A DNA stretch of 64,000 bases from assembly GCA_937139415.1 (NCBI GenBank), contig CAKZPS010000007.1, positions 1-64,000 of the forward strand. The letters are read 5' to 3'. Below the pieces are notes generated by a model, which saw only the letters and a list, made by a program, of their open reading frames with translations, made no database searches and was not told the origin of the DNA. A program made the position numbers and the translations under genes. This document shows positions 14,047 to 28,979 of this stretch, piece by piece; within the stretch, counting starts at the first letter, position 1, and each line of letters begins with the position of its first letter. The DNA comes from an uncultured bacterium. Its GTDB lineage: Bacteria; Atribacterota; Atribacteria; Atribacterales; Caldatribacteriaceae.

Positions 14047-14074
14047 TTGACATCGGGTGGGGACAAGTTATAAT
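14047..14074 (+). promoter_or_regulatory. consensus promoter of an RNA gene or speD leader
   Basis: TTGACA at 14047-14052, a 16-nt spacer and TATAAT at 14069-14074: both hexamers are perfect. Transcription should start near 14081, about 270 nt before speD. Confidence 0.85.
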
Positions 14075-14080
14075 AACTGC

Positions 14081-14324
14081 GAATATGTAAGGGGGTGGAA
14101 GAGGGTCGTTGAGGACCTCAGTGAAATACTGAGCGTCGTGGTTTTCCCTCCAAAAACACCTTACAGGGAATGCCCTTTCCCTGAGGGAGTGCCTCTCATC
14201 TTGGGCCTTCGGTTATGCGGGGCCTGAAAGGGGGAGTGCTTATTACAGCATACATGAAGGAAGTTCTTTGGTCAATTGAATAATTGATGGTCACGGAAAC
14301 TTAGTTTCCGTGACCATCGTTTTT
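14081..14324 (+). ncRNA. structured non-coding RNA or leader upstream of speD
   Basis: A transcript from the consensus promoter would run about 205 nt before a perfect terminator at 14286-14324, with no good reading frame inside. Foldable elements are visible: TGTAAGG near 14086 with CCTTACA near 14158; CTCAGT-GAAAT-ACTGAG; CAGGGAA with TTCCCTG; CCCTTTC with GAAAGGG; and TCAATT-GAAT-AATTGA. TGTAA near the 5' end can also pair with TTACA near 14245, so two folds compete. It could be a stand-alone RNA (length fits a 6S-type RNA) or a riboswitch-like attenuator of speD. I recognise no conserved core of a known class. Confidence 0.6.
14286..14324 (+). terminator. strong intrinsic terminator before speD
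   Basis: A 15-bp perfect stem (14286-14300 with 14304-14318), three-base loop and T5 at 14320-14324. It lies between the RNA promoter and the speD ribosome site, so it either ends a separate RNA or must be bypassed to express speD. Confidence 0.9.
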
Positions 14325-14354: not shown

Positions 14355-14804
14355 ATGGAGAAAATGGTAGAAGTTGGCGTTCATCTTGTTCTTGATGGGT
14401 ATACTCGAGATACCACTGTAATTGGAAACGTGGGTTACATTCGCGATTTCTTGGATGATTTTCCGGTACACATGGGAATGACCAAAGTAACTGCACCGTA
14501 TGTTTTCCAATACCAGGGTGGTTCACCTCAAGAGAGTGGTATCTCGGGAATCGTGATTATTGCCGAAAGTCACATCAGTATTCACACTTTTCCTGCTCAT
14601 GGGTACATTAGTGTGGATATTTTTTCCTGTAAGCCATTCGATGTTGACGAAGCCATTCGCAAACTGACCGAGTATTTTCATCTCGCTGATTTTCGACATC
14701 GGGTGTTCGATCGAGGAATCGAATACCCCAAAGAAATACCCCTGGCTATTCCTCTCGTCTTGGAGGAGCGTTTGGGAAACTTAGAGAAAATGGTGCATAC
14801 TTGA
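14355..14804 (+). CDS. speD: S-adenosylmethionine decarboxylase proenzyme
   Basis: SpeD makes decarboxylated SAM, the aminopropyl donor for spermidine and longer polyamines common in thermophiles. It is a class 1B pyruvoyl enzyme: the self-cleavage site is the Glu-Ser bond in AESHISIHTFPAHGY near residue 71, where Ser becomes the pyruvoyl group. FSCKPFDVDEAI follows near 96. At 149 residues it is slightly longer than the usual single-domain form. The frame is open from 14310 inside the terminator, but AGGGAGGG at 14341-14348 selects ATG 14355. No speE was found in this window. Confidence 0.95.
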   Translation: MEKMVEVGVHLVLDGYTRDTTVIGNVGYIRDFLDDFPVHMGMTKVTAPYVFQYQGGSPQESGISGIVIIAESHISIHTFPAHGYISVDIFSCKPFDVDEAIRKLTEYFHLADFRHRVFDRGIEYPKEIPLAIPLVLEERLGNLEKMVHT

Positions 14805-28558: not shown

Positions 28559-28637
28559 GGGGTCGTGGTGTAGCCTGGCCTAACACGTCAGCCTGTCACG
28601 TTGAAGACCGCGGGTTCAAATCCCGTCGACCCCGCCA
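28559..28637 (+). tRNA. tRNA-Asp (GTC)
   Basis: Acceptor GGGGTCG pairs with CGACCCC; the anticodon stem TCAGC/GTTGA carries loop CTGTCAC (anticodon GTC); the T arm has TTCAAAT. Discriminator is G and CCA is encoded at 28635-28637. Confidence 0.95.
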
Positions 28638-28643
28638 GTGGTT

Positions 28644-28719
28644 GCCGAGATAGCTCAGGAGGTAGAGCGAAGGACTGAAAATCCTTGCGTCCCCAGTTCG
28701 ACTCTGGGTCTCGGCACCA
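28644..28719 (+). tRNA. tRNA-Phe (GAA)
   Basis: Acceptor GCCGAGA/TCTCGGC, anticodon stem AAGGA/TCCTT with loop CTGAAAA (anticodon GAA), T loop TTCGACT, discriminator A, encoded CCA at 28717-28719. Confidence 0.96.
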
Positions 28720-28726
28720 TGCGCGA

Positions 28727-28801
28727 GCGGAAGTAGCTCAGGGGTAGAGCATCACCTTGCCAAGGTGGTGGCCGCGGGTTCAAATCCCGTCTTCCGCTCC
28801 A
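28727..28801 (+). tRNA. tRNA-Gly (GCC)
   Basis: Acceptor GCGGAAG/CTTCCGC, anticodon loop TTGCCAA (GCC), T loop TTCAAAT, discriminator T, encoded CCA ending at 28801. Confidence 0.96.
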
Positions 28802-28812
28802 GTAAAAAATCT

Positions 28813-28888
28813 GGCGGCATAGCCAAGCGGCAAAGGCAGAGGACTGCAAATCCTTCATTCCCCGGTTCAAGTCCGGGTGCCGCCTCCA
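28813..28888 (+). tRNA. tRNA-Cys (GCA)
   Basis: Acceptor GGCGGCA/TGCCGCC, anticodon loop CTGCAAA (GCA), T loop TTCAAGT, discriminator T as expected for Cys, encoded CCA at 28886-28888. Confidence 0.96.
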
Positions 28889-28904
28889 GGGTGGAAATGA
28901 GTGT

Positions 28905-28979
28905 GGGCGGCTAGTTCAGAGGGAGAACGCTTCCTTGACGCGGAAGAGGCCACTGGTTCAAGTCCAGTGTCGCCCACCA
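28905..28979 (+). tRNA. tRNA-Val (GAC)
   Basis: Acceptor GGGCGGC/GTCGCCC, anticodon stem CTTCC/GGAAG with loop TTGACGC (GAC), T loop TTCAAGT, discriminator A, encoded CCA at 28977-28979. Last of five tRNAs in the same transcript. Confidence 0.94.

Follow-up and report, generated by a model that had tools for sequence, protein, structure and literature searches.

The window, by which we mean the whole 64,000-nucleotide stretch analyzed here, contains a speD gene preceded on the same strand by a promoter, the core of a structured leader RNA, a short open reading frame (leader ORF), and an intrinsic terminator, T1 (Table 1). The consensus promoter and the perfect 15-bp terminator described by the first-pass annotation were both found as claimed, the hairpin being followed by TTTTT. 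The same signals recurred in relatives: in 19 of 19 loci, TTGAC(A) together with TATAAT or TATACT lies 16 to 24 nt 5' of the conserved core, and a T1 hairpin with a T-run was detected by script in 18 of them and by eye in the remaining one (L026). In the window, T1 is separated from the ATG of speD by about 30 to 36 nt, and no sigma-70–like promoter was found on the + strand between the leader promoter and speD. Because the gap is short and devoid of a promoter, speD most likely depends on read-through of T1. Thus, the RNA is most likely a cis-acting leader of speD. Inspection by eye also showed a second terminator-like hairpin, often TCTATCC...GGATAGA, between T1 and speD at six loci (L010, L012, L015, L017, L023, and L026); it is absent from the window.

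Table 1. Features of the speD leader region in the window.
Feature	Position	Strand	Details
Leader promoter, TTGACA-N16-TATAAT	14047..14074	+	12/12 consensus match
Structured core of leader RNA (model R1)	14086..14242	+	R1 96.3 bits in window
P1, enclosing P2	14093-14096 with 14158-14161	+	RNAalifold; 100% of cells paired, one-sided changes only
P2	GAGGG 14101-14105 with CCCTC 14146-14150	+	95% of cells paired, G-C to A-U double change
P2a, variable hairpin inside P2	14117-14122/14128-14133	+	Pairing kept, sequence differs between genera
P3	AGGGAA 14165-14170 with TTCCCT 14177-14182	+	93% of cells paired, double changes at two pairs
P4, alternative hairpin TGAGGG[AGTGC]CTCTCA	14182..14198	+	-6.3 kcal/mol in window; mutually exclusive with P5
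P5	14187-14197 with 14230-14241	+	RNAalifold, pair counts, window MFE; buries leader SD
P5a, hairpin carried by P5	14201-14211/14218-14227	+	Pairing kept despite differing sequences
SD-like GGGGGAG of leader ORF, on P5 3' strand	14230..14236	+	GGGAG or GGAGG there in 19/19 loci
Leader ORF (putative)	14242..14283	+	AUU 14242 or in-frame ATG 14254 (MKEVLWSIE); stop TAA 14281-14283
Intrinsic terminator T1	14285..14324	+	Terminator-like stem 14285-14319, perfect 15-bp hairpin 14286-14318, T-run 14320-14324
speD, S-adenosylmethionine decarboxylase-type	14355..14804	+	PF02675 91 bits; TIGR03330 74.7 bits, just below the cut-off of 75.65

We then asked how widely the RNA is distributed. A blastn search with a 206-base query returned matches in two close relatives only; inspection of the speD loci of relatives revealed the same element in every locus for which upstream sequence was available. 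A covariance model, R1, was built from an alignment of 17 loci and recovered exactly 17 genomes, with 83 to 144 bits and one copy each, among 50 genomes of the phylum; these genomes are the model's own training set, so that its absence elsewhere is the sole independent part of this result. In all 17, the RNA lies directly upstream of speD on the same strand. A reduced, diverged form missed by R1 is present 5' of speD in two genomes of family f4 (L023 and L024), and another genome, G005, has its speD at the end of a contig. The RNA was also absent, as judged by R1, from five genomes of the order that lack a close speD. Its range in the genomes searched comprises four families of one order of Atribacterota, that of the window. 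The RNA was found at none of 72 SpeD loci from other phyla, and a search of 386 genomes with R1 gave nothing comparable apart from one match of 24.6 bits. This lone match (G286:C75:69909-69979) is in a genome of another phylum and, given the 386 genomes searched, may be due to chance. We also considered a second copy in G002 (C31, 25.6 bits), located before a gene for a solute-binding protein, and rejected it, as relatives showed no conservation there except for the end of the preceding gene.

The leader gave a better fold than every one of 200 dinucleotide-shuffled sequences (z = -4.3), a score to which T1 contributes. Its conservation before speD in relatives shows that the region is not a product of chance. 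The first-pass annotation had offered two readings, a leader controlling SAM decarboxylase and a stand-alone RNA of a size fitting 6S RNA. Synteny, geometry, and covariation all speak for the former. As to the latter, the 6S RNA of the genome was found elsewhere (G000:C30:69852-70009, 65.1 bits), while RF00013 found nothing in the segment 13880-14400 with the threshold relaxed to E ≤ 10. The Rfam scan suggested by the annotation yielded no match at the gathering threshold and nothing credible at E ≤ 10; folP and sau-19 (E = 0.05) overlapped the terminator with scores far under their gathering cut-offs and were dismissed. The stand-alone or 6S reading thus fails, because there is no Rfam match and 6S sits elsewhere in the genome; with size as its only point in favor, we give a 6S or other housekeeping RNA next to no credence. 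A small RNA of another kind, with its own terminator and merely adjoining speD, would be consistent with the dedicated promoter and with the strong terminators, which are tandem in several genera. It is, however, very improbable: throughout four families speD invariably follows on the same strand, the upstream neighbor is rpsT in only part of the genomes, and the window lacks the space for a promoter of speD's own.

The alignment of homologous loci, a check suggested by the annotation, revealed covarying helices. For P1, P2, P3, and P5, 93 to 100% of cells are paired per helix, the common pairing of P1 being GGGU/ACCY; changes on both sides were found in 14 cells as compared to 5.5 in shuffles, and sliding the helix partners abolished pairing. 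Pairing reached 95% in P2a and 100% in P5a, versus 49 and 57%, respectively, with swapped partners; as both stems were picked by folding, these figures are optimistic. The stretches GGAA and AGUG of the core are unpaired and invariant. Both copies of GGGAGTGC noted earlier are present (14185-14192 and 14232-14239). The alternative pairings proposed for TGTAA do exist in the window sequence; they are not conserved, however, and relatives carry CGTAA or TGCCA instead.

A different alternative is P4, in which the 5' strand of P5 pairs upstream instead, leaving the SD of the leader ORF free. P4 is strong in the window and in genera g4, g5, g7, g8, and g10, and weak in g2, g3, g6, and g9. Its covariation is partial (four sequences carry a double change from G-C to U-A), and in folds of the fragment P5 was favored in the window and P4 in G008. 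Thus, for a mutually exclusive alternative of the riboswitch type, pairing support is good for P5 and partial for P4.

The first-pass annotation had seen no gene in the region and held that a conserved ORF there would speak against the RNA. The structured RNA was confirmed by covariation; nevertheless, a conserved short ORF had been overlooked, and it forms part of the leader instead of replacing it. In most loci, an ATG, GTG, or TTG at a fixed distance 3' of GGGGAG opens 13 to 18 codons. The start position is occupied by AUU in the window and at L008 and L009 (the window's genus, g1, and g2), as compared to ATG, GTG, or TTG in relatives; read from AUU, the window ORF has 13 codons and stops 2 nt before T1. 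All eight genera with a canonical start place the stop codon between -7 and +11 nt relative to T1, for which the product of null probabilities is about 1e-6, with an offset window chosen post hoc.

The encoded peptide is conserved in five genera from four families and ends with LRI, often FWxLRI: MKRVIGLRFWFLRI in g4, MERIIKAGFWVLRI in g5, MKKFIVFGFWCLRM in g6, MKRLRQAIKLVLRI in g7, and MRKIISLFMILRIE in G023 of g8. In-frame BLOSUM scores between g4, g5, and g6 were 35 to 43, versus -17 to 14 out of frame. Differences between codons were most frequent at position 3 (153/246) and least frequent at position 2 (95/246), and the conserved arginine is encoded in four ways (AGG, AGA, CGC, and CGG). 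Elsewhere the peptide is less uniform: the two members of g2 differ by a frameshift, and g3 encodes an unrelated peptide. In two of the three g8 genomes (L019 and L020), the conserved ILRIE ending follows an A run and is out of frame with the ATG by +1, reflecting either frameshifting or decay. The window's genus offers the weaker case, and translation of its ORF is putative. Together, these loci show what a leader-peptide attenuator calls for, namely, a conserved short ORF preceded by an SD between promoter and terminator, with a stop placed to affect T1, the evidence being weak in the window's genus.

How might these parts work together? The conserved RNA, its helices, the ORF, its geometry, and the exclusive linkage to speD are directly supported. 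Switching, blockage of T1 by a ribosome, a ligand, and the sense in which speD is controlled are our inferences. We propose, with a probability of about 0.62, that the RNA, the leader ORF, and T1 constitute a cis-acting transcription attenuator of speD in which translation of the leader is antiterminating. The strong promoter would drive a leader with a folded core of ~150 nt, in which P5 would bury, and P4 expose, the ribosome-binding site of the leader ORF. With the site exposed, ribosomes would translate the 13- to 18-codon ORF up to the stop beside the 5' arm of T1; a ribosome there would keep T1 unformed, and the polymerase would read through into speD. With the site buried, T1 would form and transcription would end. 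The conserved C-terminal FWxLRI of several genera suggests that the nascent chain may also stall the ribosome at the stop, possibly in a small molecule–dependent manner. The tandem second terminators of several genera, seen by eye, fall outside the attenuator model, and we count them against it. Also counted against it are the weakness of P4 in g2, g3, g6, and g9 and the irregular leader ORFs of g1, g2, g3, and two g8 genomes.

We found no conserved RNA antiterminator for the T1 arm, whose pairing partners vary between species. With no consistent RNA antiterminator found, T1 would most plausibly be blocked by a ribosome that has reached the leader stop. The same observation bears on a metabolite riboswitch (for SAM, decarboxylated SAM, or a polyamine) that would refold the RNA to control T1 directly, with the ORF a bystander or a relic, in the window's genus if not elsewhere. 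The high conservation of the core with its invariant unpaired stretches, a gene context resembling that of the spermidine riboswitch (PMC10853860), and the weak leader ORF of g1 and g2 are in line with it; the lack of a conserved partner for the T1 arm and the conservation of ORF and peptide in other genera make it unlikely. The T1 stem itself keeps (A/G)GTCA(C/T/G)/TGACY arms in nearly all loci while its tip varies, as might be expected if a regulatory protein bound these RGTCA/TGACY arms, or the core, and promoted antitermination or blocked leader translation. This we regard as improbable, as there is no candidate protein, linked regulator genes not having been systematically sought. Within the attenuator model, metabolites of the polyamine pathway would be the first candidate signals, by analogy to speF/orf34 (PMC6386406) and spermidine riboswitches (PMC10853860). 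A more elaborate arrangement is a tentative proposal: a new class of riboswitch for such a metabolite would gate translation of the leader peptide, the peptide would itself arrest its ribosome at the stop codon, and this ribosome would antiterminate T1, so that two sensors would act in series.

The conserved RNA, the tiny ORF, and the terminator before speD look like an undescribed switch, which, if true, would let the cell decide whether the SpeD enzyme gets made. To our knowledge, the control of SAM decarboxylase is poorly known in most bacteria. Plants and animals control the enzyme through a small upstream ORF (uORF). For plants, PMC3426882 reports on polyamine-responsive uORFs. A bacterial speD leader in which a structured RNA is coupled to a conserved short peptide would amount to an independent answer to this problem and would provide a compact, testable system from a largely uncultured phylum.

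TnaC is longer than the 13- to 18-codon Atribacterota peptides. Arrest peptides of its type (PMC8429421) are likewise leader peptides with conserved residues and regulation at their end; the Atribacterota peptide is unrelated in sequence and shorter, and arrest is only hypothesized here. Closer in gene function is enterobacterial speF/orf34 (speFL; PMC6386406), in which a short leader ORF also precedes a polyamine-synthesis gene and translation to its stop prevents premature termination, as we propose here. That system, however, relies on Rho-dependent termination and controls ornithine decarboxylase, whereas the Atribacterota leader combines an intrinsic terminator and a different peptide with a large structured RNA, located upstream, that contains the leader SD. 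We rejected homology to speFL, which requires a 34-codon peptide and speF, as opposed to 13 to 18 codons of other sequence before speD. The spermidine riboswitch, a SAM-I variant (PMC10853860), shares a transcribed leader, an intrinsic terminator, and polyamine genes including speD. In contrast to the Atribacterota leader, where none is conserved, its platform uses an RNA antiterminator. The RNAs also differ in structure: SAM-I/spermidine riboswitch and other SAM classes gave no match at the gathering threshold or at E ≤ 10, a search that a strongly diverged variant could escape. In Mycobacterium tuberculosis ppe2 (PMC11260477), a B12 riboswitch governs a short uORF that must be translated for the downstream gene to be expressed, which resembles our proposal; it operates by translational termination-reinitiation, whereas the Atribacterota ORF ends at an intrinsic terminator and its leader has no match to a B12 aptamer.

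Last, we evaluated the speD product. Ser72, His77, Cys92, and Pro80 are invariant in 12 aligned homologs, and the protein is, by its sequence, AdoMetDC-like with an intact catalytic triad. According to PMC10407285, a proline marks true AdoMetDC. A neofunctionalized decarboxylase was rejected on account of the Ser/His/Cys and this proline, although the correspondence with the proline of PMC10407285 is tentative and leaves some chance of an ornithine decarboxylase type. The genome encodes a second SpeD homolog directly before speE (L169 3584-3964, G000:C35; HTWPEYGYAALDILVGS), which lacks the Cys of the catalytic triad, and genomes of the window's order commonly carry SpeD of two types. Elsewhere in the window, five tRNA genes are clustered at 28559-28976.
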